NCBI GenBank assembly: GCA_947034885.2
Contig: OX344754.2
Coordinates: 7,881,001 to 7,945,000, forward strand
DNA from: Thuidium tamariscinum
Lineage: Eukaryota; Streptophyta; Bryopsida; Hypnales; Thuidiaceae
Reading direction: 5' to 3'
Length of the DNA: 64,000 bases
The position numbers and the translations under genes are program-made. Under the pieces are notes generated by a model that saw nothing but the letters and a program-made list of their open reading frames with translations, did not search any database and was not told the origin of the DNA. Below are positions 18,596 through 50,787 of the stretch, piece after piece (position 1 is the stretch's first letter; the number at the start of each line of letters is the position of its first letter).

Positions 18596-18722
18596 GTGCC
18601 AAGAATTAGGAATGATGGACTATAAGCTAAACAAACAAAACACTTGTAGTATGTAGACCACCAATGACATGCAATGATGGGAGAACATTGTTTCTCATGA
18701 AGTTCATCCCATGCAACTTCTC

Positions 18723-21531
18723 TTAAATGGAAGATTGAGTTACGTTTGAGTCCTTTATGATGGGAAAACTAGCAAATATATTGATTTGGCACTTCCCATA
18801 TCGCCCTCCACCTTCTCGTGGTAAACGGAAATAGCCCTTTTCACCCCAATTAGGTCCCCAAGAATTTTTGATAATCCAGAACTTCTTGCCATCCTTGCTC
18901 GTTCCATAACCAACAATCAAAACTGCATGATTACAAGGGTTGGGACAATACCCATTGAAAATGCCCTGTAGTTCAACAAGTAATCATCTTCAGGATCATT
19001 CATTTTAAAAAATAGTGTGGAGCAAATATGTCAACTTACCAATATGATCAAAGGAATCAAAGAAATGTAAGGGTCACAGCATGTCACTGGCAGTGGTTGA
19101 GTGTACAAAAACATTCCAATCCAATTCCAAAGAAAAAGAGATTACTCTAAACCAATCATTCTTCTAAAAAATAAATATGATAAAAAAAATGAAATTCGTG
19201 TATTGGACTTACTCCTTTATAATGCTGCATGTCTCTATTTTGAGCATCAATACCAACGGTGACTGGCTGCTCTGAGACCGCTTTAAGAATTTTATCTCCA
19301 GCTTGGTTGTCAAATGGTATCTTGACAAAATCATCAATATGAACCAGTGTAGCATTTGCTCTCTTCTGATAACCACAATCATCACTTGAACAACATTAAT
19401 TTGATGGTGTTTCTTGTGGGCAAATTAAAGAGGATTCAACATACCCAAGAATGCAGTCCTTGGATACCACAAGCAAATTACAGACACATAACATTTTGTA
19501 TCATGTTATGACACTGTCTCTCCTCTATAGAAGAGACATGTTCTACCCTAACAGCCTCTCCATCTTCCACCTGTTCAGTTACTTCAATCAAGAAATACTG
19601 GTGAAGCATTGTTGGGGTGTTGAATATTCCACACCCTCCACTGTTGAGAGAAGGCAGATGCTACTGAATGCTATGCATATTGTACAAACAAAAGCCGCTA
19701 ATTGTAAGCAAAAGCTGTTACTAGAGGGTTCGAATTCTCATGGGCATTAGATGATCTTCAACTGCCGCAAGTTCTTGCTTTCTTGTGGTGTGGTGGTGTT
19801 ATTCCCCACAAATCAAAGATGCATGGAAGATTTTAGAGATTAGGATATCAGAATTTGTACCATTTTGGTGCCACCAATGCATTGCGAGGCATAATTCATT
19901 TATTGTGGCTGCTGTTGATGAGTGCATGCATGGTAAGTTGTGGTAGGGGGAGCTTGAAGTTACATTCCCTACACTAATTAGCCTGGCCTAATTACCTCAT
20001 GTGCAATGCATGCATTCAAATGAAGAGAATAATTAATGAAAAGTTTGGAGCATTACGCATTGGAATGAAGTGGACTGCTTGTATGGATAGTCCCCTGCGG
20101 TGTGAAGACCATTGGCCTTCACGTATGTATATGCTTGAGCCGGCCACCCACCAGCGCATCCCCGACATAAGGGATATGAACCACCGGTACAACAGTCCAG
20201 CAGCTGCTGCTGCGACAGAGAGAGGAGTTCGCCTCTTTTGATTTTGTGCACTCCTTCGATGGCACCACTGGCCGCAAATGACCAACAGCTTGCTGTCAAC
20301 AAGACAATGGACAAGTTGGTCAGCCATCAAGTTGGTCTAATTAACTAGGACGACAGGTGGAGTCTAACCTCGATCTCGAAGTCCGCCTCACGAAGCCAAC
20401 AAGCCTCTGTAAGCCAACAAACCTCTGTCCGACTGGTACCAGATCGGTTGGGTTAGCGAGGTTCTACTGTACTGATTTCGGTTTCAAGTTGCCTCCGCGC
20501 GTCTCGAGATCGATGTCTCAAAGTATTCCAGGAAAAATACGTACCAATTTAACAAACTGACGTTAGTAGCTAGCTAGCTCTCACTTGATCACAGTCCTTA
20601 ACTTCCAGGCAGGTAGATCCACTGCCTGGCCACCTTCTTCCCCAAACACACATGCAGTAAGCTAAGTGAACGGGAGAGTGGCGCAACAGCTAGATGTTTG
20701 ACACTCACTCCAACACTCGCCCACACAAAAACCAAGCCTCACGAACTCTCCAGAACGCCGAATCAAATATTCAACGTTACCAAGTACCTCCCCATGCCAT
20801 CTCTCGATCTTGGCCCAAGCACAAGAAACACACACAGGTCCCAAATCAGTCAGCCCCTCAACACAACTTCAAAGCACGGATTCACACCAATAGCCCGAAA
20901 TGAATCGAACAACTACACGTCCATCAAGATAACACTGACCCCGAAATTCAACTCCTCCGATCCTAGCTAGCTCAAAACTTCAATGTAGATTCCCAAAAAC
21001 ACGAATCCAAACCTCCCAATCCAAACTCGATCATCACTCACAACATGTGCCTTGATTCTTGACCTCCGTGACAGCCCCCTCATCTCTCCAATCCACCGAC
21101 TCCTTCGGCTCCACATCCGCGTACACAAACTTGGTCGCAGCGGCCGGGGCGGATCGTGTGGGCTCCGGTTCGGGATTGAGGCCCAGGTAGTGCACCTGAA
21201 ACTCGTCGAGCGTCACGTCCGTGAAGTTGTTCAGCCCCAGCTCGTACGTCAGCTCCGCCTGCTCGTTGACGGCCACGATGTAGAGCAGATTGTCCCGGAA
21301 GATGTTGAAGCGGCGCTGCTGCTCCAGGAAGGAGCTGTAGACACGCCCGTAGTCGATGATCCATTGGAGGAAGGTCTGGAAGATATCGTCTTCAGAGAGC
21401 TGACTCCCCTTGAGTTGCCAAGTTGCAGGGGAGGCGTGGAGCTGCTGCAGAGTCGGGCATGCCAGCAGCAGAAGGAGGAGTCCGAGTGCGGTTGTGGCAG
21501 GATGAAGCCCTGCCGGTCTTGCAAACGCCAT
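18723..21531 (-). CDS. Papain-like cysteine protease precursor, copy 2
   Basis: This is the mirror-image paralogue of the gene at 2442-5256 in the right inverted arm. Exons, all minus strand: 21042-21531, 20057-20292, 19213-19365 and 18723-18965, giving 373 aa with the same intron positions and phases. Motifs are intact: ERFNIN and GNFD prodomain motifs, Cys166 in QGTCSSCW, His306, Asn327, and the same variant GCAGG in place of GCNGG. It differs from copy 1 at only about ten residues, such as N88E in the prodomain and S162T before the active site. An upstream in-frame ATG would add 14 residues, but the start at 21531 matches copies 1 and 3. The gene converges on copy 1 across the spacer. Protein family is certain; expression is unknown. 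Confidence 0.93.
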
Positions 21532-21657
21532 GAATTCTGGCTGGGAGAGAAGAGCAGAGAGAGAGAGGGACACTGACTGAGAATTCGACGGAGATGGGGA
21601 GCTAGATCGAGGAACGCTGTTGCTGCTGTGAACTGCCTTGAGTGTGCCGGGGGGCCG

Positions 21658-21665
21658 CTTTTATA
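21658..21665 (-). promoter_or_regulatory. TATA box of protease copy 2
   Basis: TATAAAAG on the minus strand lies 127 bp upstream of the ATG, with the same GGCC-rich downstream context as copy 1. Confidence 0.7.
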
Positions 21666-21910
21666 CTGTGGAAACATGAGTTGAAGCCCGAGGCACGTCC
21701 GGAACACATAAAGTCCGTGGGATGGAGACCTCGAGGGAAAAGCACCCCACCCCAGCTGCCCAGCTGCCCAGCAGCACTGTTAAGTGTCCCCAATGGTTTT
21801 TCTTATTTTGCATTTTGGAGAACTCAAGGAGCCAATTGGTTCTTCAATAGTCATGATTGTGATACTTGGCTGATACTCGGAGATACCTATTTGAAACTAG
21901 GTGATACTTA

Positions 21911-22182
21911 AGGTAGGTACACCCAAAAGCGCCACTTATTCACACTGAGCCTAGTTCCTGCTATTAATTAGTTCAAATTTTTATGCAGTCTTGTTGGCAA
22001 GTGAAAGCATGTTCCAACGCACCAAAGAACGTAGGATTTGGATACCGTATGCAAAAGTTATTAACACTCAAAGTCTGTTTCTGAAAGCGCCATCTACAGT
22101 CTGTGAACATGACTGATTTCGGAAATGTATGTGCACTATAGATGGCGCTTTTAGGAAAATGGCTTTTTGGGTGTACCTACCT
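21911..22182. mobile_element. AGGTAGGTACACC-family miniature element, copy 2
   Basis: This is the right-arm counterpart of the element at 1790-2061. It is 272 bp, with inverted ends starting AGGTAGGTACACCCAAAAGC and TA duplications at 21909-21910 and 22183-22184. Confidence 0.88.
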
Positions 22183-22359
22183 TAGGTCAAATTTGGCTAG
22201 TGGTCTCAAAACAAACCAATAATCTAGCTAGCTACTATTGAAACAAACAAATTAAAATCTTGTTTACAAAAAATAAAATAGTGAGTATTTTTTGGTTGTA
22301 GCCAATTGGCCAAAATTTGTGCAAAAAAAAAGAAACACCGAATTTTCTCAATTGCATTT

Positions 22360-23073
22360 GGGTGATTGCAATGAACACCTATACTATTTGTTGCATTTTC
22401 ATGATTTTTTGGGGAGTACTTTAAAAATTAGAAAATCAATTTTGAATTTTAGAAGAAATAAGATTAATGTATACACCTTTAAGACAAAGGTACCTAGGGA
22501 AGGAATTGGATAGAAACATTCCCTAAGTAGGAAAACTAAAAAAGTGCCAAATCTCAAGAAAATATATATTTTGATGTTTAAATTAGAGAAAAATAAAAAA
22601 AATTAAGTAAATTAACAAAATCAAAATTGGCCATTTGTAACAACTTTATAGAAATGGTCATTTATAAAAAAATCACTAAAATAATATTTTATATCTTTCA
22701 AAATGCAAGTTGAAAGAAGCTCACTTTGTAGACTTCCACACCACATAAAAATAACTTCAAAAAAAAATTCCCTCCCTTCAAAGGTCCAAGTCTAATAGAA
22801 GACCATTTCATCTAGATTTTAGCTCAAAATTTGTTTTTTGGGGTACTAAATAGAATGAAAACCCTCCAAGTTTGTAAATGTAATATTCTATTTTTAGATA
22901 GTAAATTATTTTTGAAAATAATGAAACAATTCAGGGATGATTTATGATAGTTTTACTACCTTTTCTACAAATCTTGAGTCAATTGGAGCCAAAACACAAA
23001 AGTTATAGCCCAAATAATAGATCAACATGCAATGTGTGATGCAAAATAGTACAAGTGTTTCTTGCAATCATCC
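22360..23073. mobile_element. GGGTGATTGCA-family element, copy 5
   Basis: This 714-bp counterpart of copy 1 in the other arm is flanked by ATTT (22356-22359 and 23074-23077). It begins GGGTGATTGCAATGAACACC and ends TTTCTTGCAATCATCC. It is non-coding. Confidence 0.88.
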
Positions 23074-23393
23074 ATTTATTTCTAGAGATTGTAGAGTCAT
23101 TCTAGGATGTAAATCTAGATAGACCATAATTAAATAGATTTATCATTTTGGTTAACAAAGATAAAGCTATCTATGGTTACCTAGATTTATGTTCTAGAAT
23201 GGCTACCTTGAATCTAAAAACATTCATTGTTGGGGACATTGGTAGTTTTGTGTGCTTCTCTTTTAGTGTTGTCAAGGACATTTTGCCAAAAAGTATTGCC
23301 TCCATAGACCGTGAATTTTTTGTATTCCTAGAGTTTCTTGAAGAAGTCATTTTCTTTGACAATTATTGATTCCTAGCATCTTCAATCCCTAAA

Positions 23394-24190: not shown

Positions 24191-24193
24191 ATA

Positions 24194-24469
24194 AGGTAGG
24201 TACACCCAAAAGCACCCTATTCCTAAAAGCGCCATCTATAGTACACATACATTTTCAAAATCAGTCATGTTCACAGGCTGTAGATGGGGCTTTCAGAAAC
24301 AGATTTTGACTGTTAATAACTTTTGCATACGGTATCCAAATCCTGCGTTCTTTGGTGCGTTGGAACATGCTTGCACTTGCCCACGAGAGTGCTTAAAAAT
24401 CTGAACTAGCTAATTAGGACAGGAACTAGGCACAGTATGAAAAAATGGTGCTTTTGGGTGTACCTACCT
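24194..24469. mobile_element. AGGTAGGTACACC-family miniature element, copy 3
   Basis: This 276-bp element lies outside the inverted duplication. Its ends are AGGTAGGTACACCCAAAAGC and the inverse, flanked by TA at 24192-24193 and 24470-24471. It is clearly diverged from the two arm copies, so the family is older than the arm duplication. Confidence 0.88.
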
Positions 24470-24554
24470 TAATCCATCCAACTTTCCAAAGTGGAGCACA
24501 AATTAATTGGAGCCTCTAAATGGATACTGACAAACGAGTACTGACAAAAGGAGT

Positions 24555-24962: not shown

Positions 24963-25273
24963 AGCAAGGTCTTAAAATGGAGCAAGCTCTAGAGTGGAAC
25001 AAGTTCTAGGGGTACATTTTGTACACTCCAATGTACAAATAGTCTACATTTTATGAGGTGGTCTTGATTTTAGAGCCCATTGAAACAACTTTTTTGCAAC
25101 TTCAAAAATTTGCAACTAAACCTTCAAAGGTCCAAAAAATTAGAAACAACTTGGATTGGATGTCAATTACATTTTTCTTTTGATGAAAATTTATTGAAAA
25201 ATACTTCAAGAAGTTTGAGATTCCCAAAAATGCAAATCAACTATTAAGTAGTCTATTGTAGGATCTCCTACCT
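24963..25273. mobile_element. Probable TA-flanked pogo-type miniature element, degraded
   Basis: The right end, TAGGATCTCCTACCT followed by TA (25274-25275), and the interior (TTGGATGTCAATT, TTTATTGAAAAATACTTCAA) match other members in inverse. The left end AGCAAGGTCTTAAAATGG after TA (24961-24962) is degraded. At 311 bp it has the usual family size. Confidence 0.5.
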
Positions 25274-25309
25274 TAGTTGTTATTAAATTATACCACTTAG
25301 TCACTATCA

Positions 25310-26039: not shown

Positions 26040-26710
26040 ACCCATTTCCATCCACTTGAGCAATTATGCATATCTAGAGTGTAGATTTTTTGAATGCAAA
26101 TTTTTTTTCATGTATAGAAATAGAATTTGAAAGGATGCCATATTTTTTTAGAATTTTATTACACAAATTGTAATTACTATGAATTTTTTAGTAGAAGATT
26201 CTCTTCAACTTATAATGGTGATATAGACTGATTACAAAACCAACCAATGGCTATTTGCATTTATGAGAGCCTTGCAACTAATCCTAATGTGCCACAATTG
26301 CTCTAGGAACTACACTACAACTTCATGGAAAAAAAATTGCCTAAGGTAGCCAACCCATTTCCAATCACCTACCCATTTCCAATCTATAGGCTCTTTTCTT
26401 TCTGTGAAATTGTGGTGTAGTTCCTGGAGCAATTGTGGCACATTAGGATTGGTTGTAAGGCTCTCATTAATGCAATCATCCATTGGTAGATTTTGCAATC
26501 AGCCTATGGTCAAAAATAGTAAGGCCTATATTACCATTATAGGTTAAGAAGAATCTTCTACTAAAAAAATTCATAGTAATTACGCTTTGTGTAATAAAAT
26601 TGTAGAAAAATATGCTATCTTTCCAAACTCTATTTTTGTACATGGAAAAAATTTTGCAATAAAAAAAAATGCACTCTAACTGCATGTAATTGCCTAAGTG
26701 ATTCGAAATA
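26040..26710. repeat. Large fold-back of about 670 bp
   Basis: The left arm (about 26040-26335) and right arm (about 26405-26710) are inverse copies, with a central ~70-bp unpaired loop. Matching pairs include GTGCCACAATTGCTC with GAGCAATTGTGGCAC, and TAGTAGAAGATTCT with AGAATCTTCTACTA. The loop contains a direct doublet of ACCCATTTCCAATC. No target duplication is clear. Confidence 0.75.
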
Positions 26711-26917
26711 GGTCGGCTACCTTATTGATTGGAATGGAGATTAATTAATAATGGGTCACCATCTTCTAAATGGATTGGAAAAGAAGTTAGATGCATTAAG
26801 AACATTAGTAATGTATTTGGGTTGGGTGTAGAATGGATTGGCTTATTATACAATGTGGTCTATTTCAAAAAGCTATAACATGTATACATTAATGTATTTA
26901 AAATTAGATTTGTCTAG

Positions 26918-28365: not shown

Positions 28366-28652
28366 TACAGCAAATTTCGTTAAAACGGCAATATTCCATT
28401 AGTTTGACACTTTTAATAGTTCAGACCGTGCAGTTTGAAATGTAAAATTGCCATAGATTTTTGAAATCTATAATTGTCCAAGATATTGCAAACCACGTGG
28501 TCTGAAATATAAAACTATCATAGATTTTGAAAATCTATATGTGTCCTAAATTCTTGAAAATCTATACCTGTCCTAGATGTCAATTTTCAATTTCGACCAT
28601 GCGGTCTGAAAAATGACATTTGGAATATCGCCATTTTAACAAAATTCACCAT
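28366..28652. mobile_element. TTAAAATGGC-type element, longer variant
   Basis: The left part AAATTTCGTTAAAACGGCAAT and right part ATCGCCATTTTAACAAAATT are inverse. The interior has three copies of a GACC(G)TGCRGTTTGAAAT-like motif and repeated ATAGATTTTTGAAATCTATA palindromes. Exact ends and target duplication are unclear. Confidence 0.55.
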
Positions 28653-28659
28653 AGTTAGA

Positions 28660-28861
28660 AATAGGTACCTAAGATTGCCATCTAAAAAAAATCATAACTA
28701 AGTATCCCAAAATTACTCTGAAAATTATGAAACCACTTTTGCTACATACATCATCAATTTCTCCCTCCATGTGAAAAATAAGGAAAAGTATATTTCTGTG
28801 CACGTAAGCCCATGAAAAAAGCAACCAGCCTTTAAGTGGTCGCTTTTCAAGCAGACTACCT
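28660..28861. mobile_element. TA-type pogo-like miniature element, partial
   Basis: The right end, reverse-complemented, is AGGTAGTCTGCTTGAAAAGC followed by GACCACTTAAAGGCTGGTT. It matches the pogo-like terminus and the element at 44796-45205 through the interior. TA follows at 28862-28863. The left end is lost where it abuts the neighbouring element. Confidence 0.6.
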
Positions 28862-28869
28862 TACCAAGC

Positions 28870-31874: not shown

Positions 31875-32497
31875 TAAGGTAGAGGGCTCGAAAATGGTTC
31901 ACTTAAGGGAAATCAGCCCTCTGCAGAGGAATCAGTGAACCAGAACTAATTCGAGCTTGGATGGAGAAGAAGAGAAATGGCAGAGGGAAGCTTGCAGAGT
32001 GGAATTATATTTTTTGCAGTCTTTGAGAATTATTGGTGAATTTTCAAAGTGCCAGCCTCATAGGGCGCTATTTCTGCTCCTAGAGTATAGAAGCAATCCT
32101 CCAGAACATGACAGTGAAAAGCAACTCACAAGTCCAGAAATAGATGAATAATATGCTGAAATTGTATATAGCAGGTTTAAAACCGTGCATTACATAAGCA
32201 AAATTAGGGCACGAGAAGCTCACAAAACGGTCAGTACTCATAACTGCAGTTCCTGTACAACTACCAAAATAGACCGCACATGAGTCCAGCAATGCGTCGG
32301 AGAGGCTTCAAAATGGTGCACTGCTATCACTAAAATAAGTACACCTATACTGAAAAGGGACTGTGGCATGCCCGAAATGGAACAATGCTGACAGAAAATC
32401 GCCCGCAGTAGCCTGCCACATGCGCGACCTGCAAACCCTAGAAGCCACCAATGCGGTCCTCCAATTCCCTGCAACTGTGTCATCCGCGTGGCCCGTA

Positions 32498-32725
32498 TCA
32501 GCCACTAGGTTTCGCTTCATCGATGTACAGAGGAGCGGTCGTTCGAACTACGCCTTTCGATGAAGGAAGAAGCCGTTGTTTTTTGAAATCGTCGATGTCG
32601 TCGGAAGGCGCGGCACATTTGGCGGGGACGCTCCTCGATAGTTCAAAATTGAAACAGCCCGCATACAGAACTGTAAGTGCTTCGTCTCCAAAGATGAAGG
32701 TCCTATGTCGCTTCATTTTCTTCAT
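32498..32725 (-). CDS. Small open frame in the left part of the pogo-like element
   Basis: A 75-codon frame starts with ATG at 32725. The same frame is open without a stop back to about 32920. Local base composition is more GC-rich than the surroundings. It encodes a mixed basic and polar peptide with no domain I recognise. It lies downstream of, and on the same strand as, the transposase, so it could be a second element-encoded exon or a captured host fragment. It may also be chance. Confidence 0.2.
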   Translation of the reverse strand: MKKMKRHRTFIFGDEALTVLYAGCFNFELSRSVPAKCAAPSDDIDDFKKQRLLPSSKGVVRTTAPLYIDEAKPSG

Positions 32726-33355
32726 GCTTGGAGCTTGATTCCCCTTCTGCACCCTATCGCTCCGCCGCTTGCAGGAGAGGCTCGTCGTCAAAGGTTCACA
32801 GGTAAGCTCTGCCCTTCCTTGTATGCATACTTCTTTGTCCTGTACAGCATGTCCGTTTTCGCTAATGCCTATTATCTGTGGTCTTGGCAAGCCTCCCGAA
32901 TATGAGAGTGTTCCTTGCACGCCAACATCTGCAATGACAAGTAGAGGTAACCTGCTCTCCTATTTCCGTTTTCTTCACACAACATTCCTGTATGATATTT
33001 TAGTACAACCAAGCTATTGATGAAGTCTGTCATTAATCTCTGCTAATGCACTAGTGCTTGCTACATGAGGTCCTGTAAGCGGATACTGATAGCTTGGTTG
33101 TTGCAAACTTGTATTGTTGTAGAGGCTTGCGGGGAAGAAAGATGAAGCGTACATGAGCTATTGCTGCCCTGCTGAGCTATTCGTTGGAATGAACATGGAC
33201 GCATGTTGGGATTGATAATGTGCGCCAACATTGCTCATACCACTGAGATGAACTTGCTGTAACGGAGGAAACATGGGGAAGAAAGGTGGAGCATGCTGGA
33301 ACTGTTGCTGCCCTGTTGAGCTACTGCTGGAAATGAAAGCGGATGCATATTGGGA

Positions 33356-36082
33356 CTACTGATGTGGACCAGAGCTGCTCATTCCGTTGAAACAAACCTC
33401 CTGCAAGGGCGGAAATGAATTGGTATCTTTTCCCATACTTCTAGCTAGGTGTTTTTCCATAGCAATTCTTTGATTATCTCTGCAAACTTGTGGAATGATG
33501 CCACAGTAGGGTGCCTGATAGCCTGTCACAGGGGCATTTTGGCGAATAGCTGCGTGTAACCTATCTCCAGCCGCTTTGACATTCTTGATGCTCCAAGCTT
33601 CCTTGTGTATTTTTTTCCTCCTTGCCAAGTCCGCCCGAGCTGCTTTCGCTTCTAGTTTCTTTTTCTTCTCCTCTAGCCTCTGTTGTTTCTTGGCCTCCCT
33701 CTCCTGCTGCAACCTCTGCCTCTCTGCTGCAGTAGCTTCTCTTTTCTGTGCTAGTTGCTCTAAGTGTTGGACATGATCTTCTTGAGTGAGCATAAGGGAC
33801 TTCTGATAGTCTATGAGTGGTTCCGCCTACCTTGTAGTCTTCTGGGGCACCTGTATCCTTGGTAATTGAAGGAACTCCAAAAATCCATTCACATACATCC
33901 CTTCTTGACCTATAGATGTTGTTGTGGCCTCTGTAGCATTGTTATTGGAGTCATCATTGTCAGTAGATCTGTCTGTAGGATCGTTCTCTCCTTCTTGAGT
34001 ACCGTCAATGTCCACATAGTATTGGGTGCAGTTGGGTAAGTCTTCTGGAACTTCGTCAAATATTTCTTTGATCTCCCACTGCTGCAGTTCACCATCTGAT
34101 TCTGACTCTAAAGAGTTGTTAAAGCCAGTAGGACATGCTCCTTGTGTACTATCGCCATACACTTTACTAGGGCCCATTTTTGAATCCATCGCCCTTCTGT
34201 TAAATGGATAAATGCCTACTGCAGCAAAACCTTTAGTGATGTTTGCAGTTGTCAATGCTCTCCTCAGAGCAAAAGATACCCATTGAGCGAGGTCTTCTTT
34301 CATGGGTTTCTTTCCTACATGATCAGAAGTCCATTTGTCTCTGTAGGCCCTGAAGCAATGCTTGAATGGCTTAAAACAAGACACATCCAAAGGTTGCATA
34401 GCATGGGATGTGTGAGAGGGGAAAGTAAGCATGTCCAAGCCTTGAGACTTAGCTAGTTTGATTACATCTAAACTAACATGGGACTTGTGACCATTTAGAA
34501 TTAGCAAATGCCTGTTTACTGTAGATATACCATATGCTTTTGAAATTTTCAACAAGAAATGGGACATCCACTCTGCAAATAAAACATTATTCATCCATGC
34601 TTTTGATTGCATTGCCATTCCTGCTCCTTTCTCATGGGTTCTAATCAAGAAATTCCTCCTCATCTTCTTACCTTTCAAAATATAGAAATTTGGCAAGGAT
34701 TCACCTTTAGCATTGATGCAAACCAGCACTGACAACCACTCTCTGAAGTCAGGTGTAACCTTGTGGACATTTTTACATCCTCGTCTAGCAATGACATAGC
34801 CTCCACCATCCCTTCCTGCTTGTGCTCCACTCTCATCGCAGTTCCAAATTTGGTATGGTTGGTAGTTGTGTTTCTCATATAGAAATATGAGGTTGTTATA
34901 GAAAGAGGCTACAACTTCTGGACACAAATTTTTGGCTCTTTTTTGTTCCAATGCTTGTGCTCTCCTTATAGTCAATTCCTCATGTCTTCTTTTGAAGCAT
35001 TTTACCCATCCAGGACCTGGTACGCCTTCCTTAAAGGGAGTCATTCTGGGTTGAGTAAGAATCATGACCTTCTCCCTCAATTGTCCTATACTTAAAGGGT
35101 ATCCAAGCTCCTGCATATGCATCAAATACTCTGAGAGTTCTTTTTCTTCTTCATTTGTTAGGACACCTTGCTTTCCCCTTCTTCTATGCTTGGTTGTATC
35201 GTAAATATGGCCTCTTAACGTAGAAGCGGGGATGCCATTATTTCTGGCTGCAACCCTAATAGGGATGCCATCATCGAAATCAATCATGGCTGCTTTTAAT
35301 TGTGCATCAGACCAGTTCCCATTTTTCTTTCTCTTCCGGCTAGACTTTCGAGTACACGTAGGAACTGCAGGTTCAGGAGAGCATTTCGAATTTGATGGTC
35401 GGTTGCTAGGCATACCTTCTTTGTCTTTGTCGTCCGTGTGCTCTGTCTCGTTTGCAAGCTCAGCTACTGGATCATCTAGGCATGGCGATGCTAGCAGCTT
35501 CTCCAATTCCTCCACACTGTGCATGTCATGGAACCCTTGATCGCCTGTCACTACTGCACTGCAGCTGTTGTTGATATCAGGAAACTGTGGAAATTGAAGG
35601 TCTACCTGAGGCATTGGAGGGCACTCCGATTGTGGCAGCTCTGCTTCACCTATCTCTCGATCCTCGCGTTTCTCCACTGCTGCACATTCATCGTTGGGTT
35701 GTCCTTCGTAAAGTCTGTCTTCTTGTACTCCAACAGTGCTACTGTTCATGTTGAGAAGCGTCTTTATTGCTTGCGCTGTCTGCTCCTTGCGGCTACGAAG
35801 CACTCGGCGATTCTTTGGTATTGGTGATCTGATTGTGCGATAGTCTGCTGCTTCTTGACGCTGAGAAGCCTCCATGGTTTGAAACCATTCTCGATCTTCC
35901 TCACGCTTCGCCCATTGGAACAACTCTTTGTTCTGCTTGTCCTCAGATTCCTCTGTAGAGTCGACCTCACATTCCGCATCATTTTCGCAGTACTCAGAGT
36001 CACTACTTCCTGAGCTACTAGAGCGCTGCTAATTCCCTCCATCTTTGTCACTACTATTATCGGAATTGCTATCATCACTCAT
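33356..36082 (-). pseudogene. Pogo/Tigger-like transposase, disabled
   Basis: A single frame from ATG 36082 to the stop at 33356 spans 908 codons with no frameshift, broken only by TAG at codon 18 (36029-36031) and codon 752 (33827-33829). Order: acidic and serine-rich N-terminus; a psq-type helix-turn-helix at about 257-293; a CENP-B-like DNA-binding region at about 305-373; the DDE_1 catalytic domain at about 405-590; an acidic tail; and beyond the second TAG a lysine/glutamate-rich coiled coil (about 765-835). Known pogo transposases use DDD. Here D416 (WNCDESG) and D566 (MQPLDVSCF) are present, but the middle residue in LLILNGHKSH is N530 (codon 34493-34495). It normally binds terminal repeats and moves the element; this copy should be inactive. 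Confidence 0.88.
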
Positions 36083-36889
36083 TTTTGATCCAGTAATATT
36101 TACCAATCTACAACAATACTAAAGCAAACTATGTTGCAACAACAATCACATAGTTCTGTGCAAAATGATGTTTCCTTCTTACTCTCTATGGCAGCTTAGC
36201 ACTGTAGACACTTCCAGTTTCTCCAAACTCATCTAAGGAAGAAGAAGGCTCAACTACCATTTCTGAGGACATTAAGTTTAAATATTTGTTTCCTGACATT
36301 CCAATTATTAATGGAATTTTTCTCTTCATTTTGATAAACTGACAGCTGCTGTGTTCAATGGAATTGTTCACTTCATTATCTTAAATCGATAGCTGTTGCA
36401 CTCTAAAGAACACGTTTCCAATTGTAAACCGCTCAGTATTGGTGATTAAATGCACAGATTATATCCTCCAAATGAATCATTAGTTATAATTGAAATTAGG
36501 CACAATGCATGCCCATTTGTTTCATAGCACAGTCCCATAACGACTTCAATGCACCCCATACTGTCCTCTACTGTTGTACTTGCAATCAATAAATAGCTAA
36601 TTTTAGAGCAATACGCACCCTGACAACGCGCACATACAACCACCAATTCTTAATACACTGAACGCAGTCGATTTTTAAACCCCTCTGCACTGTTTTGGAC
36701 ACTTTTATAGGGGCGGTTCTTATTGCCCGAACGGTTTTCGAGCCTCCTACTATATATTGAAGGATATTGCATAGCAAGTGCCAAGAATTAGGGATGATGG
36801 ATCCATAGTGTCGAGAGCCACCAATGGCATGCAACGATGGGAGGAAATTACAGTTCCTCATCAAGTTTGTCCGGTGCAACTTCCCTTCC

Positions 36890-39172
36890 TTAGATGGAAG
36901 ATCGAGATTCCTTCGATTCTCTTACGATGGGAAAAGAAGCCATTCTATTGATACTGCACTTCCCAAGACACCCATCAGTTTCTTGTGGTAAACGGAAAAA
37001 GCCCTTCTCACCCCAAGAAGCTCCCCAAGAATTTTTGATAATCCAATACTTCTTGCCATCATCGCTTGTTCCATAACCAACAACCAAAACCCCATGATTA
37101 GGAAGGCTGCGACAATCACCATTGAAGATGCCCTGCAGTGAGTTCATTTGTCATAGGATCATTTTAAAAAGCATTAGTTACAGACCAAATATATGAAGTT
37201 ACCAACATGGTCAAAGGAATCAAAGAAATGTAAGAACCACACATTCCACTAGCACTGGATGAGTGCACGAAAATATTCCAATCAAATTCCAAGGACAAGG
37301 AGGAAGAGATTATTGCAAGCCAATCTTCTCAAAAACATAATAAAAAATGAAATTAGTGTACCGGACTTACTTTTTCATAATGCTGGAAGTCCTTACTGGA
37401 AGCATCGATACCAACGGTGACTGGCTGCTCTGAGACTGCCTTAAGAAGATTTTCTCCAGCTTGATTGTTGAATGGCACCCGGCCCACATCATCAATGTGA
37501 ACAACTGTACCGGATGGTTTCTTCTGATAACCCCAATCGTCATTTCAACAACATTAGTTCAAGCGTTTCTTGTTGTTGGCAAGTTGAAGAGGATTCCAAC
37601 ATAACAAAGAATGCAATAACTTACTGGGCTACCATAGAATGCAAAAAAGATACAAGCAAAGGATATAAGCAAAATATAGAGAGGTTTTATGGTTATCAGA
37701 TGGTCTTAAACCAACATGAGTTCTCCTGTTCATGTAGTGTGCTGGTGTTATTCCCCCAAATCAAGATGTATGCATCGATCCAAATGACAAAAACTAGCTT
37801 GTACATCATAATAAAAGTTTGGAGCATTACGCATTGGAATGAAGTGGATTGCTTGTACGGATAGTCCTCTGCAGTGCGAAGACCATTGGCCTTTACATAT
37901 GAAAATGCCTGATCCATCGAACCGCCGTTGCATCCCCTACATGTGGGATATGGACGACCGGTACAACAGTCCAGCAGCTGCTGCTACGACAGAGAGAGGA
38001 GTTCGCCTCTTTTGATTTTGTGCACTCCTTCGATGGCACCAACGGCCGCAAATGACCAGCAGCTTCCTGTCAATCGGTGGACAAGCTGGTCAGTTAGTTT
38101 TTTTCTGCTGGAACTTCATGCTCCAAAACATGCTTGGAACTAAAATTATCCCCAGTTCCATTCGGGGGCTGGCATGAAACAAAGAGTCTAATTATAGATG
38201 TTCAAGTCTGCAGAGAGTCTAACAGCTATTCAATCTCATTAGATCACTGTACTAGCTCCTTCCAGGCAGTTATCCATTGCCTGGCCACCTGATTTCCCAA
38301 ACACAAGAATTAAACAGGAGTGTGGCCACCACATTGAATTAACCAGATCTTTGCCACTCACTCTGGACAACACTCACCCACATGAAAACCCAGCCTCACG
38401 AATTCTCCATAACGCCAAATCCAATTTTCAACGCAACCAAATACCTCCCAACCTCTCGATCTTTGCCCAAGCACAAGAAACACACCCGCCTCCATATCAG
38501 GCAACCACTCAATGTAACTCCAAAGCACAGATTCAATCACACCGATAGCCCGAAATGAATCGAACAACTAGACGTCCATCAAGGTAACACTGATACCGAA
38601 ATTCAACTCCTCAAAAGTTCTATATACTTCCCAACAACACGAAACCATTCGATTCAGAATTTCAAACTCGATCATCACTCACTACATCTGCCTTGATCCT
38701 TGACCTCCGTGACAGCCCCCTCATCTCTCCAATCCACCGACTCCTTCGCCTCTACATCCGCGTACACAAACTCGGTCGCAGCGGCCGGGGCGGATTGCGC
38801 GAGCTCCCTCTCGGAATTGAGTTCCAGGAAGTTCACCTTAAACTCGTCGTGCGTCACATTCGTGAAGTTGTTCAGCCCCAGCTCGTACGTCAGCCCCTCC
38901 TGCTCGTTGATGCCCAAGATGTAGAGTAGATTGTCCCGGAAGATGTTGAAGCGGTGCTGCTGCTCCAGAAAGGAGCTGTAGACACGCCCGTAGTCGATGA
39001 TCCATTGGAGGAAGATCTGGAAGATGTTGTCTTCAGAAAGCAGACTCCCCTTCAGTTGCCAAGTTGAAGGGGAGGCGTGGAGCTGCTGCAGAGTCGGGCA
39101 TGCCAACAGAAGAAAGAGGAGTCCGAGTGCTGTTGTGGCAGGATGAAGCCCTGCCGCTCTTGAAAACGCCAT
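36890..39172 (-). pseudogene. Papain-like cysteine protease, copy 3 with premature TAG
   Basis: Exons on the minus strand are 38683-39172, 37831-38066, 37371-37523 and 36890-37132, with the same splice positions and phases as copies 1 and 2. The frame is intact except that codon 191 (37984-37986) is TAG where both other copies have CAG, truncating the protein just after the active-site helix. All other hallmarks persist: Cys166 (QGRCRSCW), His306 ([11 protein letters not shown]), Asn327 (KNSWG), the full ERFNIN motif, and GLNNFTN, with the final Asp of the GNFD motif replaced. It carries the canonical GCNGG (208-212) followed by SMDQAF, unlike [11 protein letters not shown] in the others. Intron 2 is 307 bp versus 691 bp. 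A sequencing error at one base is the alternative to a pseudogene. Confidence 0.85.
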
Positions 39173-39293
39173 GACTGAGTGGGAGTAAGCTTGAGTACGA
39201 GTGGCAGAGAGAGGGACACAGACTAAAGAAATGCAGGTGCAAGTGCTGGGGAGAGTGCGTTATGGCTGCTGCATTTCCCCTGAGGGATGGCCG

Positions 39294-43675: not shown

Positions 43676-43678
43676 GTA

Positions 43679-44005
43679 AGGTAAGAGGTCCTATAATGGA
43701 CCATCTAAGGGCTGAAACAGAATTTTAGGGAGGTAAAACTTCTAGAAATATTTTTCAGTAAATTTTCCTTGAAAGACAAGTAGAATTGACATTTAACCCA
43801 AGTCGTTTCATATTTTTCTGAGTTTTTTTGAATTAGTTATCAAATTTTGAAGTTGAAAGGACATAGGGCTCTAAAATGGTGCCCTAGCTAAAATGTACAC
43901 TGTCAGTACACTGCTGAAGGCTATGAAAAAGCAACATGTACAAGTACTGTACATTTAAGATAAGGCAGCATTTTAGAACCCGCTCCATCTAAGAGCCTTC
44001 TACCT
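43679..44005. mobile_element. TA-flanked pogo-type miniature element
   Basis: TA lies at 43677-43678 and 44006-44007. Ends are AGGTAAGAGGTCCTATAATGG and the inverse of AGGTAGAAGGCTCTTAGATGG. The 327-bp interior shares GGAGGTAAAACTTCT, a GGCATCTAACCCAAGT-like block and the ATGTACA palindromes of other members. It begins directly after the hairpin. Confidence 0.8.
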
Positions 44006-44795
44006 TAGTTCACCCTAGTTGCCTTATACAAAACTGGTTTTATTAGCCAAAGTGGCATCTGGTCATTGGTGAAACGTTTATCATGTTGCACCTGCTCCAC
44101 AACAGTCCATTCAACTGCTGTCCAAACAAGCAATCCCATAAATTTGATGGTGCCTTTGAACAGATATCAACAAGAGGTCCGTCACACTCACATTCATGAG
44201 TGAGAATGCTAGCACTTCTGTGCAGTCGAAGGGCTTGCTTCACATCCATGTAATTAAGGTCCTTGGCTCCTTGCACCCTCAATCTTCCCATGCATAGCAT
44301 GTGAGCATTTTTTATTGGCTAAAAATTGCCAAAATTCACCCACCGTCCATGTACTTCGATTTTAATATAGGAATTGAAGGAGCAAAAATTGTATTTTTTT
44401 CGTCTAATTTCACTCTCTAGTAGTTGTATTTTAGCCATCTAGCTTCCTGCCAAAAGATAATATCGCCACTAAATTCAGTATGCACAAGTTTATAATCACC
44501 TATACTTCTGTCACTATGGTCATACATTCTAGACAAAGTGGCCAGATCTTAGTCATTAAATCACATTTTCAATTCTTGCTAGTATACATCTACTATAAAG
44601 ATGGATATGTTGCCACTTTTGCTTTATCATCAAAATCTATGTATAACAAAAATTCAGTAATGTGCATTTGTTTAGCAAAATTATTTTCTTCTTACAATGA
44701 ATAGAAATAGCCACTTCACTGAAAGTTCATTGAAAATTATCACCAGTACTTTGAAAAAGCTAAATCACTAAAAGAAACACTGGTGAGCATATTTA

Positions 44796-45205
44796 TGGTA
44801 GATGGCTCTAAAACCGCCCCTCTCCTTGCAACCACCCCATAGGTGGTTGTAAAATGGATGGGAGTTGATCTTTAAATGGACCACTATCACTATTGAATGA
44901 ATCGAGAAATTTTATTTTATTTTATTCTGAGAACCAATTATTTCCTCCATAGTTCAGAAATCGTTTTAGTAGTTGTAGGGGGACAGATTATAGGACACCT
45001 ATGGTCACAAATAGGTAACTACTATAGAAATCTTTGAAAATTCATAACTAATTCAAAAATGATTCAAAAAATATGAAACCACCTGTGTTACATTCAGCAT
45101 CCATTTTTCTTTCTCTGAAAAATGAGCTAAAAATATTCTTGTTCATGCAAACGTATGAAAAAGGCGGATCAGCCCTTAAAGTGTCGCTTTTAGAGCCATC
45201 TACCC
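44796..45205. mobile_element. TA-flanked pogo-type miniature element, unit 1 only
   Basis: Ends are TGGTAGATGGCTCTAAAACC and the inverse of GGGTAGATGGCTCTAAAAGC, flanked by TA at 44794-44795 and 45206-45207. The right end continues GACACTTTAAGGGCTGATC when reversed, matching the pogo-like terminus. At 410 bp it lies in a ~0.9 kb stretch missing from unit 2. Confidence 0.82.
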
Positions 45206-45215
45206 TACTAACGTA

Positions 45216-45535
45216 AGGGAGGAGGTCTAGAAAGTGCCCATCTAAGAGCTGAAACTGAATTTGGGGAGGTGAAACTTCTTGAATTATTTTTAAGGAAATT
45301 TTCCTTGAAGGACAAGTGAAATTGGCATCTAACGCAAGTTGTTTTTCCTAGTTTTTGGAGCTTTGTGGTATTACTTATGAAATTTTGAAGTCAAAATGAC
45401 ATAGGGCTCTAAAACCACCCCCCCCCTCAAATGTACATTATTTGTACATTCTTGTAAAGATTTAAAAAAATCAACAATGTACATTTGAAAAGGTGAGCGA
45501 TTTTCAAGCATGAGCAATTTTGGAGCCTCTTCTTT
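45216..45535. mobile_element. TA-flanked pogo-type miniature element, shared by both units
   Basis: TA lies at 45214-45215 and 45536-45537. The left end is AGGGAGGAGGTCTAGAAAGT. The same element occupies the matching place in unit 2 (56861-57195), so it predates the tandem duplication. Confidence 0.78.
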
Positions 45536-46076
45536 TATATCTAGCTCTCACAATCGTCCTTTACATAGCATGTGAGCATAGTTACTACCATACTCACCTA
45601 TCAAGGTCAACATTCATACTAAATTAGTTTAATTATATTGTTAACCCCTAAGTGTCCAAACTCATCTCCACAATTGAAGATTTTGGAAAGATCATCTAAA
45701 AGTACTATTTAGAAGAATATTTTTGAATTGAGATGCAAATAAGAGTTGTAGAGTTGGGGTTGGAGATTCTATTTATATAGTTAGATTCACCGACACAATC
45801 ATCAATATTTTTCAATGAATTTTGTTGGAAAGGATGTGAAATAAGGTTCTATTGACATGGAGATTTTTTGGAATTTTTGTGTTCTTTGATTCTATGACCT
45901 CATTTTTGCAATTTCAAGTTTGAACTAGAATAAACCCAAGTCAACCACTTGACATACTTCTACATTTGTAATTTAAAAAAAATACATGCTTTAGTAATAC
46001 CAAACCCAACCGTTGGATACAACCACAACTTCATAAAGTGTCTCTAAAAATTACAATGACTTTCATCCAAGCTATA

Positions 46077-46379
46077 AGGTAGACTGCTCTCAAAGCGACC
46101 ACTTAAGAGTTGATTGCCTTTTCAAGGAAGTTGAACTCCTTGAATCAATTTTTAGTAAATTTTCACATGAAGGAAAATGGAATTGGCATCTAACCCAAGT
46201 TGTTTCATCTTTTTGGGACCTGCGTAGAATTAGTTATGAATTTTCAAAGTTCAAACACAGTGTGCTCTAAAAGCAACCACCTATTGAAATATACAGCTGT
46301 AGTGCATTGCAGAAACCAAAATCTACCATTATGGCATGGTCACTTTTAGAAACATGGTCGCTTTTAGAGCAGTCTACCT
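46077..46379. mobile_element. TA-flanked pogo-type miniature element, unit 1 only
   Basis: This 303-bp element has ends AGGTAGACTGCTCTCAAAGC and the inverse of AGGTAGACTGCTCTAAAAGC, flanked by TA at 46075-46076 and 46380-46381. Unit 2 has the flanks joined at about 57738 (CTGTTATGAGAAAG), so this is a filled/empty pair. Confidence 0.9.
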
Positions 46380-46680
46380 TAATGACAAAGAAATTTGATT
46401 TTCAATCTATACATTGTCCAGAATATGGACGTCAAAGCATTCCAAGGTTAAACAATGAAGGAAGTTAGAATTGGCCTATGCTTTAGAATACGAAAAAATG
46501 TACATATAGCATGTCTGGACGTTGAAGATTGGGAAAGATGATTGTTATTAATTGAGTTCAATGATTGATTGGAATGGTAATGGGAGGAGCTAGCTCAAAT
46601 TCATCTCAAGGTGGAGCAACATGATTGGGACGCTAATGGCAATCCTCACAGGCAGATTTCATTGACATGGGAAGAGTTAA

Positions 46681-47345
46681 CCCCTGAATGCCCAAGGCTT
46701 TTTTTAGGTTTAGGGTTTAGGGTTTAGGATTTTTCTCTACATAGAACAAAAAGTCAACATTTTGATAAGTTTTATTTCTATTAAATTTGAAATGTTACTA
46801 TATAAATTCAAACTAGACATGTTAGAGATTATTTAGGAAAGAAAATACAACAATATTACTTATGAATTGAAAGATTATAATGTTTGACGATGACAATGTT
46901 AAAATTGTAAATAAGAGTTGACATCTTTTGATCTTCTTTTGACAAGCCAAATCTAAAATGTTGGGAACCATAAAAATATGAAGTTAAAGGACCTAACATG
47001 CATAACCCCAATCAATTATATTTAAAAAAAATTTACTCTACAATTTTCTTAAGTGAATTTCTAATGTGTGTTTTTTACCAAGATCTAGTATATTTGAAAC
47101 TCATTTCCAAGAGACCTCAACACTATTGAAAGTCAAGATACAATGTTGTGGCTGGCCAATTTGTAATGTGCTCTCTCTGGCAATAAAATCCCCTTTCATC
47201 TGTTTCAAAAAGAAAAAGAAAAAAAGCCAAGATAACAATGGATACCCTTGCACAAAATCTTGAACGGAAAAATCATAAAATAGCAACTTGGTTAGGCTTT
47301 ATTTAACTACAAACACTAGATTTTGATGCTTCAGGCATTTAGGAG
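46681..47345. mobile_element. TTAA-type element, old copy shared by both units
   Basis: The left end CCCCTGAATGCCCAAGGC follows TTAA (46677-46680). The right end, reversed, is CTCCTAAATGCCTGAAGC, followed by TCAA, a one-base decay of TTAA. The counterpart in unit 2 is about 57976-58592 with both ends degraded. The element contains a short TTTAGGG run at 46703-46728. Confidence 0.75.
46703..46728 (+). repeat. Interstitial telomere-like TTTAGGG run
   Basis: Between three and four units of TTTAGG(G), the plant telomere repeat, lie within a TTAA-type element. The matching place in unit 2 lacks it, so it appeared after the tandem duplication or was lost there. Confidence 0.7.
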
Positions 47346-49190
47346 TCAATTGATCCTTGACCACAAAAAGCTCCCTACATTGTAGCCGCTACTAATCTTC
47401 AATGATGATTCCTTGCAAAATCTTAGAGCATTGAAATTAACCATTAATCCTTTAACACCCCCATTAATACCCAAGCATTGAAAGAAAGAAGCTGGATGTA
47501 GTGACAAACAAAACTAGGTATAGATTCAAAACTTTTTAAATTCAATCCACTATACCATACATAAGCATCAATGGGCAAAGTCTAGAATTCAATATACAAA
47601 AGTTCTAATATGCGACATATAACACATTTCTATAAGCAATTTGAAGAAAAAATTAGTTGTGATTTGAAAGAAAATTAGTTCCATAGTTAGCCATATTTGC
47701 ATTGAGTTTTGTTTATCATAAATTGGAATTAATTTTTAATTTTTTTAATTCTTTTAGAACTCAAAAAAAATTATACCTTGACATCTTCATATACATCATT
47801 TCAAATTGTTGTGCACAAAATTGAAGGAAAAATCAATAAATTCAATATTTTAAAACAACATGAGATTTTGGCCTACAACCATGGTTTCATTCATTCATCT
47901 AGTTGCAAAATAATACCAAGCATAGTGATGGATAAGGAGGTTTGAAATCAATTGACATAGATCCATCCTTCTAGGGTTAGTTTGAGAATTTATTTGGGTA
48001 AACTTGGAATTATTATGAACTCTTGAAGAAAAAAATGATGGAAATTCATATCAAATACAAAATATACTAAAAAAATCATAGATTATTACCATAGATTTAT
48101 ATTATAGTATATAACATCATGTATATTATAAAATATAACATGAACTAAAGTTTTTGTATCACTCTAAAATTAAAAAATCAAGAAACCGTAGTTATAGACC
48201 AAAAGTTCATATTGCTATAAAACACTAAAATCTATGATATTTTCAAAGTTTTCAATTAGAGTAGAAACAACACTTGGTAAGCTTTATTTCAATAGTTAGA
48301 CTCAAATTCAAAAAAATATCATTTTCATGGCTAAATTCACATCAAGAGTAAATAGCAAGAAATGCCCAAAAATCCACTACAAGGATGATATTTGAATTAA
48401 GCATCTTCTTTGTTAGAGAAGTCAATGAAACTATGAGGGAATTTACAATAATATTGATTGAAAATGTACTCAAATAACTTTTAAAACTAATATTGGATGA
48501 AAAATCCATTTTTTTTCATTTTACAATTTGAAGTGAAATCATCCATCAAACAACATCCATCTAACTTTAATGCCATTGGAGTGAGCCATCAATTTTCCCA
48601 TATTTGGTAGTCTTGACAAAGTTTAGAACATATAGGTCTACTTGATAACCAACCTTAGTTTAATATTCTCAACTTCTATATGCATTGAATAGGAGTTTTA
48701 AGAGAACCCATTCTAATTAACCAACATTTCACACTATATAAATATCTACCTCAATTGTACATCAATAGCTATTGAAATGTGGGGGGGTTGTACATCATGT
48801 TTTGAAACATCTACAATTTCTAGAATAAGTCCTTTCAATTTTTTTAAAGCTTAAAACCCTAGTACATAGAGATCTAAGAATACACTACAAGGATCTTAGT
48901 TGAAATTTTTACTAGCATAAAAAGAGGCTCATATGCATCAATTGTTGATCTATAGATTTTACTAAGATCTCAAGAGTCCCCCTCAATTTAAATTATATCC
49001 AAAGCACCAAAATTGTTGAAACAGTCTACCTCTAATCAACAATTCCATAGCCTAGCTTTCAAGGCAAATTTGTCACCATTCCATAGGATAGTCAAAGAAG
49101 TATTATAACTCATAATGTCTTTTTATACCCTTATATTTGTAAAAAGTACAAATATAGACATATGTAATGAACTAATAGATTAATTTGGCA
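47346..49190. other. Intergenic DNA of unit 1, no gene
   Basis: AT-rich sequence that aligns with about 58593-60328 of unit 2 with many substitutions and small indels. No frame is conserved between the two copies. Confidence 0.5.
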
Positions 49191-49215
49191 TTAACCCTTG
49201 AGCACCCAATCTATA

Positions 49216-49524
49216 AGGTAGGAGGTTCAAAAACCGCTCATCTTCCAAAATGTACATTATTTGTACATGATGCTTTTTAATCTTTATAGGAATGTATAAA
49301 ACAATGTACATTTGAGGGGGTAGGTGGTTTTAGAGCCCTATGCCATATTGACTTCAACAATTCTTAACTAATTCCACAATGCTCCCAAAAAATGAAACAA
49401 ATTAGGTTAGATGCATATTCCACCTATCTTGCAAGGAAAATTCATTGAAAAATATTTCAAGATGTTTCACCTCCCCAAAATTCAATTCGAGCTCTTGGAT
49501 GGTCAATTTATAAACCTCCTACCT
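49216..49524. mobile_element. TA-flanked pogo-type miniature element (nested)
   Basis: This 309-bp element has ends AGGTAGGAGGTTCAAAAACC and the inverse of AGGTAGGAGGTTTATAAATT, with TA at 49214-49215 and 49525-49526. It inserted about 20 bp inside the TTAA-flanked element. The interior has the ATGTACATT palindromic pair and the GGTTAGATGC block of its family. Confidence 0.85.
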
Positions 49525-49653
49525 TAATCACCAAAATCGAGATCTTTTGGAAGTCATTGCAATCAAATTGTTATCCTAAACAAGATCTATGAAACTTCAC
49601 CATATTGATTGGTAGGAGAGACAAGATTAGAGTTGTAGGTGAAAGGATAAATA

Positions 49654-49878
49654 TGGTCAATTTCATTAAATTGGCGATACTCCAATAAAATGGCATGACA
49701 TTCCGTTAAAATGGCACAACATTCCATTAAAATGGCACATTTTCTTCCTCTACCACTAAGCCTCTATGTCAAAATGGTACACAAAATATGTCAAAATGAC
49801 ACTTGAAATTTGTCAAAGTGGCACATGGAATATGTCAAAATGGCACTCGGAATACCGCCATTTTAACGAAATTGACCA
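49654..49878. mobile_element. TTAAAATGGC-family miniature element with tandem units, copy 2 (nested)
   Basis: Ends TGGTCAATTTCATTAAATTGG and the inverse CCATTTTAACGAAATTGACCA are flanked by TA (49652-49653 and 49879-49880). The 225-bp interior consists of ~25-bp units around AAAATGGCAC, oriented opposite to those at 54976. It lies inside the TTAA-flanked element. Confidence 0.85.
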
Positions 49879-50787
49879 TAATTGATTTGACCACATCCTT
49901 GAAAAGATTTTAATAGTCAAATAGGCCAATTTTTCAATTTTGAGCAACAAGATCCTGTTACTAGGGCACTTATAGGTTAAGGTAGCAACACCTATAATTA
50001 CCAATTTAAGCAATTTAAGCATAGTTGGAGTCACCTTTTTCTAAAAAGAGTATTTTTGCAATATTAGCAATCAAAAATCATGAATTTTAAAAAAATAGAA
50101 TAATTGGATAAGGCATCTTATTTCTAAGAATTTTCAAAGTAGAATTCCCTAGGGCACCCAAATTTGTATTCTAATGTAAATCTGCTTTGATTCTCACAAT
50201 AAAATCTTAAAAAATCAAAGCCCACCAACTACAATTAAGCATGGGGATGGTTTTAAAATATTTTAGAAGACACTTTAAAGGAATTCTAGTGTCAAACAAT
50301 TGGTACATTAATTTAAATGGATGCTCCTACCTTATGTCCCATAATGCTCTCAAGCCTCTTATCTATCGAGCATTATCTAAAGTAAACTTACCTATGACAC
50401 ACGAAATGAGTGGTTTGTCTTTTTTCCATTAGCAAAAAGATAATTTTTAGAAAAATTCAAAGACAAATGTGACAAATGAAGGAAGGAGTTTAAGTTTTAT
50501 TTTTTAGACAAATTAAGAATTTTTTATGAATTTTTTGAACAATGTTACCCAATTGGACTCAAAGAGTCCCAAAAAATCTTTAGACTACTTCAAATCAATG
50601 AAAAGTGTTTCCATAATGGTCATCTTACCACTTCAAGCAAGTACAACATTTTTTAACATAGCAATGACATCAAGGATTAAAAAAATAACTCTTTATAACA
50701 AGTTTACACTAGAAAGGGATAAACTGTGTCCCATGACAATGACTAACAACTCTATGACCATCACTCGAGGCATTAGTTATGACCATA

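Follow-up and report, generated by a model that had tools for sequence, protein, structure and literature searches.

Plant transposons of pogo type with associated miniature inverted-repeat transposable elements (MITEs) have a precedent in eudicots, from which Feschotte and Mouches reportedly described the pogo-like transposon Lemi1 and the Emigrant MITEs in 2000. Here we describe another such family, represented in a 64,000-nucleotide stretch of DNA (hereafter the window) by a 4,876-bp element at 31877-36752, lying between TA dinucleotides at 31875-31876 and 36753-36754, and by nine miniature elements which, on sequence grounds, are non-autonomous relatives of the family. We consider it highly probable that a lineage-rich pogo family gave rise to these MITEs by internal deletion and spread in trans. 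Like Lemi1/Emigrant, the family combines a pogo-type coding element, TA targets and MITEs in a plant, and by analogy it may be regarded as one of a known kind. The Emigrant ends appear to differ in sequence, whilst the present host is apparently a moss, in which several MITE families have first-look candidates (unconfirmed copies, 40 of which were scored per family) that number in the thousands.

Stowaway ends begin CTCCCTCC, whereas those of the window family begin AGGTAG. Unlike Stowaway and plant mariner elements, the window family also has a DDE_1 domain, DD35D spacing and a Tc5-type DNA-binding domain; the likeness is in the TA target, the short terminal inverted repeat (TIR) and the miniatures mobilised in trans, as described for Stowaway and plant mariner in PMC12595863. 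The moss Physcomitrium also has elements of the Tc1/mariner group, PpTc1 and PpTc2, but these are described as Tc1-like, with DD34E and CAGT ends (PMC4054914). A pogo-type transposase in a non-flowering land plant is reported from Selaginella, with two pogo-like sequences placed in clade 38 (PMC7325037), and the window family differs from this description in its 64 scored places and linked MITEs. The land plants given for pogo elements are Selaginella and dicots in PMC7325037 and 23 eudicot species in PMC7386202, and among the matches listed from the open-licence literature, in part a fraction of all matches, none had pogo elements of mosses as its subject by title or abstract opening. A diverse, partly recent pogo expansion in a probable moss, to which several MITE families can be traced by homology past their ends, extends the known range, and offers one genome in which the mobilisation of each MITE family by each transposase branch becomes testable.

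A pogo-type element and its coding family

The element and its parts are as follows.

31877-36752, minus strand: pogo-type DNA transposon, decayed copy (TA flanks, inverted ends, Pfam DDE_1 and HTH_Tnp_Tc5, empty sites in two paralogous loci)
31875-31876, unstranded: left TA target duplication (flank reading, empty-site comparison)
36753-36754, unstranded: right TA target duplication (flank reading, empty-site comparison)
31877-31900, plus strand: C-side TIR, adjoining the transposase C terminus (end pairing)
36729-36752, minus strand: N-side TIR (end pairing)
5402-5407, unstranded: approximate empty target site, paralogous papain locus 1 (paralogue comparison)
18572-18577, unstranded: approximate empty target site, paralogous papain locus 2 (paralogue comparison)
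33356-36082, minus strand: transposase frame, with ATG at 36082-36080, internal TAG at 36031-36029 and 33829-33827, and final stop at 33358-33356
33827-35923, minus strand: longest uninterrupted part of the frame, 698 aa, containing the DNA-binding and the DDE domain (open reading frame list, Pfam)
34835-34837, minus strand: catalytic residue 1, Asp (paralogue alignment)
34493-34495, minus strand: AAT (Asn) at the second catalytic position, which is Asp in 27 of 30 loci
34385-34387, minus strand: catalytic residue 3, Asp (paralogue alignment), with 35 residues between positions 2 and 3 (DD35D)

The two ends, AGGTAGAGGGCTCGAAAATGGTTC on the left and TAGTAGGAGGCTCGAAAACCGTTC on the opposite strand, pair at 82% over 22 nt, giving an imperfect inverted repeat of about 24 bp. 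The tip of the right end, TAG-AG, looks inherited, because the same tip recurs at the N-side end of six other loci (L006, L008, L012, L023, L024 and L029); a reading of the tip as erosion was rejected for this recurrence. A papain-like gene block beside the element occurs three times in the window, and the two other copies run through the insertion point without the element, providing natural empty sites at about 5402-5407 and 18572-18577. In this alignment the flanks are diverged and small gaps were needed. The two element-free copies, which contain papain-like gene pieces, form a 5.4-kb inverted pair (633-6019 and 17960-23345) of 97.9% identity; the third, at about 36767-39224, is more diverged.

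The original prediction placed a pogo-like transposon here, and this was borne out by the inverted ends and by Pfam, which identified DDE_1 (2.4e-21) and HTH_Tnp_Tc5 (5.9e-8) in the 698-aa open part. Both domains were also found in the three relatives scanned, one of which additionally contained HTH_psq. HTH_Tnp_Tc5 supplies the DNA-binding domain by which pogo elements are recognised (helix-turn-helix, CENP-B or Tc5-type). Alignment of the paralogues, from which the catalytic triad was assigned, revealed D-D-D with DD35D spacing in 27 of 30 loci and Asn at position 2 in the other three (the window copy, L026 and L029). Four further distinct copies (L067, L069, L070, L071) all have Asp at position 2, and two of them have Asn at position 1. 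The family therefore has the DDD triad of the pogo superfamily, whereas the window copy does not. According to the survey PMC7386202, DD35D is compatible with several pogo families. The superfamily is further described as having a TA duplication in most families, a TIR mostly of up to 40 bp and a length of 1.2-5.2 kb (PMC7386202), and the window element, with TA, 24-bp ends, 4,876 bp and empty sites, fits this description. On these sequence features the element is of pogo type. An autonomous copy would have an intact frame and triad; the window copy is read as a decayed family member because it has two in-frame TAGs and its second catalytic Asp is replaced by Asn. The second TAG (33829-33827) lies inside the gene, since paralogue L003, though it has stops elsewhere, is collinear and stop-free across it.

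A search of the genome (363.2 Mb on 19 contigs, window included) scored 64 transposase places out of 398 candidates, the window itself counted, and the others were 48-71% identical to the query. There was no stop in the matched stretch of 17 of the 64, including the window stretch, although some of these carry stops further along (L012, L021, L023). A second transposase query scored 65 places out of 478 candidates. In 10 of 29 other loci an end with at most 7 mismatches to those of the window copy lies 591-757 bp upstream of the start; among the remaining 19, L026, L033 and L034 have 10-mismatch candidates for the N-side end at a similar distance. A C-side end of the window kind is present in L025, L027, L033 and L034, in part as found with a wider set of reference ends. 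Far flanks were fetched for seven copies, of which five contained the C-side end, with lengths between TAs of 4,495-5,458 bp; two of these five (5,338 and 5,458 bp) are longer than 5.2 kb. Two near-identical copies on different chromosomes, C2 and C7, share 99.28% over the aligned 4,420 bp and have unlike flanks, and the family has therefore moved recently. L067, the near-identical partner of L066, carries an in-frame TAG and Asn at the first catalytic position, pointing to decay soon after a recent insertion.

Outside this family, a PDB sequence search with the transposase gave no match up to E 1, and no relatives were confirmed in viral contigs (698-aa query) or in prokaryotic genome contigs (182-aa core query). 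Rfam, at gathering thresholds, and ARAGORN found no match in the window.

Miniature elements and their homology to the coding element

The miniature elements have the properties expected of MITEs: 294-410 bp, TA on both sides, TIR and a high candidate copy number. Those of the window, including a half and a degenerate copy, are listed here.

46075-46381, plus strand: M46075, 303 bp plus TA (empty site in duplicate at about 57735)
55662-55959, plus strand: M55662, 294 bp plus TA (empty site in duplicate at about 44104)
43677-44007, plus strand: M43677, 327 bp plus TA (TA-flanked ends)
45214-45537, plus strand: M45214, 320 bp plus TA (segmental-duplicate copy at 56864-57197)
56864-57197, plus strand: M56864, duplicate of M45214 (TA-flanked ends, segmental duplication)
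49214-49526, minus strand: M49214, 309 bp plus TA (TA-flanked ends)
44794-45207, minus strand: M44794, 410 bp plus TA (over 176 bp, 66.5% identical to the element)
28647-28867, minus strand: M28863, half MITE, C-side half only (end recognisable at 28863)
24990-25275, minus strand: M25275, degenerate MITE in which the C-side end alone can be recognised; its lower border is approximate (end comparison)

The empty site of M46075 lies in the segmental duplicate 57614-57851, with no gap at the junction, and that of M55662 in the segmental duplicate 43973-44250, with six bases missing near the junction. Together with the TA flanks, these sites confirm the earlier claim that the miniatures have TA targets. 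Six of the seven places originally named (46077, 44796, 43679, 45216, 49216 and 55664) are TA-flanked ends with a second such end. The seventh, 28660, has no inverted repeat itself; about half an element is left there (28647-28867), and its inverse end exists at 28863. The window also includes a diverged tandem segmental duplication (45206-54044 and 56856-64000) whose copies differ by MITE insertions, and within which 52105-54044 and 62078-64000 are 93% identical.

Screening of 8,572 TA-flanked 24-mers outside the element revealed nine with at most 8 mismatches to the element's two ends, and all nine are MITE ends; chance alone gave 0.40 on average (20 order-2 Markov replicates). Moreover, the homology extends beyond the ends, over two regions of the element.

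31877-32083, plus strand: C-side region of about 207 bp common to the MITEs, colinear (sensitive alignment, control stretches)
36705-36752, minus strand: N-side region of about 46 bp, 91% with a 410-bp MITE family (alignment reaches 85-106 bp in some copies)

All nine window MITEs keep register with the element to within 7 bp, and the in-register alignment reaches position ~170-207. The originally claimed alignment of about 45 bp was thus correct and understated. Its detail of a AATCAGCC block fared less well, since at that place the MITEs have GGCTGATT, and in opposite orientation. In a sensitive comparison with the element's first ~200 bp, M44794 gave E 4e-14, whilst M46075, M55662, M43677 and M45214 gave E 3e-5 to 6e-4. 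Against 2,000 random window stretches, whose maximum score was 23.2, the score of M44794 (34) was reached by none, those of M46075, M43677, M45214 and M28863 by one each and that of M55662 by three. Among 19 MITE copies from elsewhere in the genome, 15 scored above every control and four were reached by 1-4 controls.

The polarity of the ends was assessed with profiles built from MITE ends oriented by their interiors, ranks being out of 9,108. Over positions 17-40 the left profile put the element's left end at rank 39 and its right end at 3,494, whereas the right profile put the left end at 373 and the right end at 13. Positions 25-40 alone gave weaker ranks in the same sense (269 vs 3,275 for the left end and 169 vs 7,697 for the right). 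As judged by these rankings, the two ends of the element keep their polarity and are not interchangeable.

Genome-wide, the pattern TAAGGTAGNNGGCTCGAAAA occurs 147 times and its reversed control does not occur. Twelve of the 147 sites, all plus-strand and with the exact core of the window, were fetched, and all 12 proved to be one 410-bp MITE with TA on both sides and unlike flanks. Pairwise identity of these copies is 97.6-100% (mean 98.4%, 66 pairs). Alignments of five copies gave 68-69% to M44794 over nearly the whole length, 67.5% to positions 89-207 of the element (E 1e-10) and, at the element's other end, 91% over 46 bp (4829-4874) and 71-72% over 106 bp. Of the homology to both termini past the TIR that would mark a pogo-derived MITE, the C-side part is clear, whilst the N-side part amounts to about 46 bp at 91% in this family, with no significant signal beyond 44 bp there or beyond 30 bp in the window MITEs. 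Two window MITEs also represent what may be large families. That of M46075 has 3,552 first-look candidates, with the other 39 scored copies at 86-92% identity, and that of M45214 has 4,575, with the other 39 at 80-84%; the scored copies of both cover most or all of the element.

A separate family of about 272-276 bp, with AGGTAGGTACACCC ends and TA on both sides, is found at 1788-2063, 21909-22184 and 24192-24471. It has 3,734 first-look candidates, the other 39 of the 40 scored being 91-94% identical, and 21 of the 40 share a bit score of 391 and 10 share 396, which would fit near-identity among these copies. These miniatures were rejected as progeny of the element: for M24192 and M1788 in both orientations, more than 1,000 of the 2,000 controls reached the score in each of the four comparisons. 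For the miniatures at 1788, 21909 and 24192, no likeness was found beyond the first bases in the two of the three that were compared.

Candidate parents and rival explanations

With multiple coding copies available, the window MITEs were compared with ten of them for the ends and with seventeen for the subterminal and C-side regions, and family consensus ends were made from 9 and 10 genome copies. Over the C-side 34 nt, the matches of the nine window MITEs to the window copy number 18-24; for M46075 (24, a tie with L022), M44794 (23) and M28863 (24) no other copy does better. L024 has 28-29 matches to M45214, M49214 and M56864 (window 18-20), L006 has 27 to M43677 (window 22), and the top matches for M25275 and M55662 are L022 and L012. 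The C-side 34 nt of the 410-bp family are a tie at 25 between the window copy, L003, L006, L068 and L076. In the N-side 24 nt, M49214 fits L028 (20 vs 19) and the far end of M56864 (M57197) is a tie between the window copy, L022 and L028; the consensus of the M45214 family favours L028 over the window (19 vs 18). Over the N-side 44 nt of the 410-bp family L012 has 39 and the window copy 38. A tree of the C-side region places all MITEs in one clade (FastTree support 0.976-0.994; 0.994 with the 410-bp family included).

The original prediction went further and held the window element to be the likely parent of many TA-flanked miniatures. In its strongest form, that an earlier, intact window element was the direct parent of all of those in the window, we regard this as highly improbable, and it was rejected on C-side ends, N-side ends and subterminal scores. 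In its favour, the window region is the best of 17 C-side regions for M44794 (34.0; next L072, 26.8) and also, scoring 39 (z 17.1), for the corresponding half of the 410-bp family, ahead of its sister L003 (26) and of L006 (24), and it ties at 25 with L022 and L070 for the C-side consensus end of the M46075 family. However, the consensus C-side end of the M45214 family matches L024 at 31/34 and the window at 19/34, which refutes direct parentage for this group. In the subterminal region (41-210) L006 or L072 score above the window for seven of the nine window MITEs, M28863 is slightly higher with L006 (24.0) and L022 (23.5) than with the window (22.5), and several N-side ends fit other copies better: M44794 fits L032 (20 vs 18), the far end of M43677 (M44007) fits L030 (20 vs 14), and the M46075 family fits L022 both in the far end of M46075 itself (M46381, 19 vs 15) and in the consensus (21/24 vs 17). 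The window copy is also decayed, and is one of 64 scored places. The prediction had named a better-matching autonomous element as what would refute it; L024 has a better-matching C-side end for M45214, M49214 and M56864, and L006 for M43677, whereas in their C-side halves neither M44794 nor the 410-bp family has a better match than the window lineage among the 17 coding copies. The N-side ends of these last two, however, fit L032 better (M44794) and L012 slightly better (the 410-bp family). The parentage claim thus stands for the family, through the C-side colinearity, and not for the window copy. By these comparisons M44794 and the 410-bp family are matched best, in their C-side halves, by the window lineage; M28863 is mixed, its end fitting the window best, and M46075 is a tie.

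That the MITEs are unrelated by descent, their ends having converged on the same transposase (TIR capture), is in our view very unlikely. In its favour, the subterminal region of M45214 does not match L024 (score 12, z 0.3) in spite of the close match at the end, and the AGGTAGGTACACCC family has only its first bases in common. However, homology is held in register over about 200 bp in the nine window MITEs, if weakly in three, and in both sampled genome families, and it is also seen in the 410-bp family; TIR capture is therefore refuted for the main group. The behaviour of M45214 suggests a tentative explanation, which we hold to be possible but doubtful, that its lineage changed its ends: the terminal ~33 bp match the L024 branch, whilst the interior would come from the common MITE ancestor and is nearer L006/L072. 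If so, MITEs would swap or re-adapt a terminal recognition module and pass between diverging pogo transposases in one genome. The C-side end of L028 was sought in two stretches as a test of the L024 match and was not found. It is hardly credible that the locus is a host-domesticated transposase gene with coincidental repeats: it does have an open stretch of 698 codons and a DNA-binding domain that is kept, but the empty sites refute this reading, to which the inverted ends, the TA duplication, the two in-frame stops, the lost catalytic Asp and the dozens of dispersed copies are also opposed.

Descent of the MITEs from the pogo family as a whole accommodates these observations. The transposase would recognise the ~24-bp inverted ends and, probably, the neighbouring subterminal block by binding them, and would excise the element and insert it at TA, such insertion being observed in the empty sites. 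Internally deleted copies would keep ~200 bp of the C side, where homology past the ends is observed, and a shorter, less conserved N-side end, and so become MITEs. These may then have been mobilised in trans, reaching high copy number and splitting into families, in a genome with many coding copies, including near-identical recent ones. The window element would be a decayed member of one branch, with other branches fitting other groups and ends better. Several results weigh against this reading. Three of the nine window MITEs (M49214, M56864 and M25275) have scores reached by 25, 25 and 37 of the 2,000 controls, the first two with E 0.08-0.09 only. Past the first 30 bp, no clear signal remains in the N-side halves of the window MITEs (z at most 2.6), and the N side of the 410-bp family beyond 44 bp, taken alone, is not significant against the element (z 1.6 with the window, 3.0 at best, with L030). 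In 19 of the 29 other loci the fetched DNA contained no N-side end within 7 mismatches, 14 of these 19 forming one branch of the transposase tree. Lastly, the place of the MITE clade among the coding copies has no support (0.035-0.206, with 0.206 for joining the window branch), and therefore no direct parent is identified.

The host and other features of the window

The DNA-binding exon of the LEAFY gene at C4:11159876 has KMRDYVHCYALH and GAWCQACY, which we take to be moss-type residues at positions 312 and 345. LEAFY types are described as being set by sites 312, 345 and 387, with type II mainly in mosses and one liverwort (PMC6588583). On these residues the host is probably a moss. Six stretches of the genome exceed the Pfam cut-off for the LEAFY SAM domain (L044, L045 and four more), one being a clear LEAFY at 103.6 bits and five weaker at 30-44 bits; the DNA fetched for L045 contained no LEAFY DNA-binding motif. 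Elsewhere in the window, 13109-13804, 26040-26713 and 7935-8331 are self-complementary over long stretches (74-83%) and may be further foldback or MITE-like elements.

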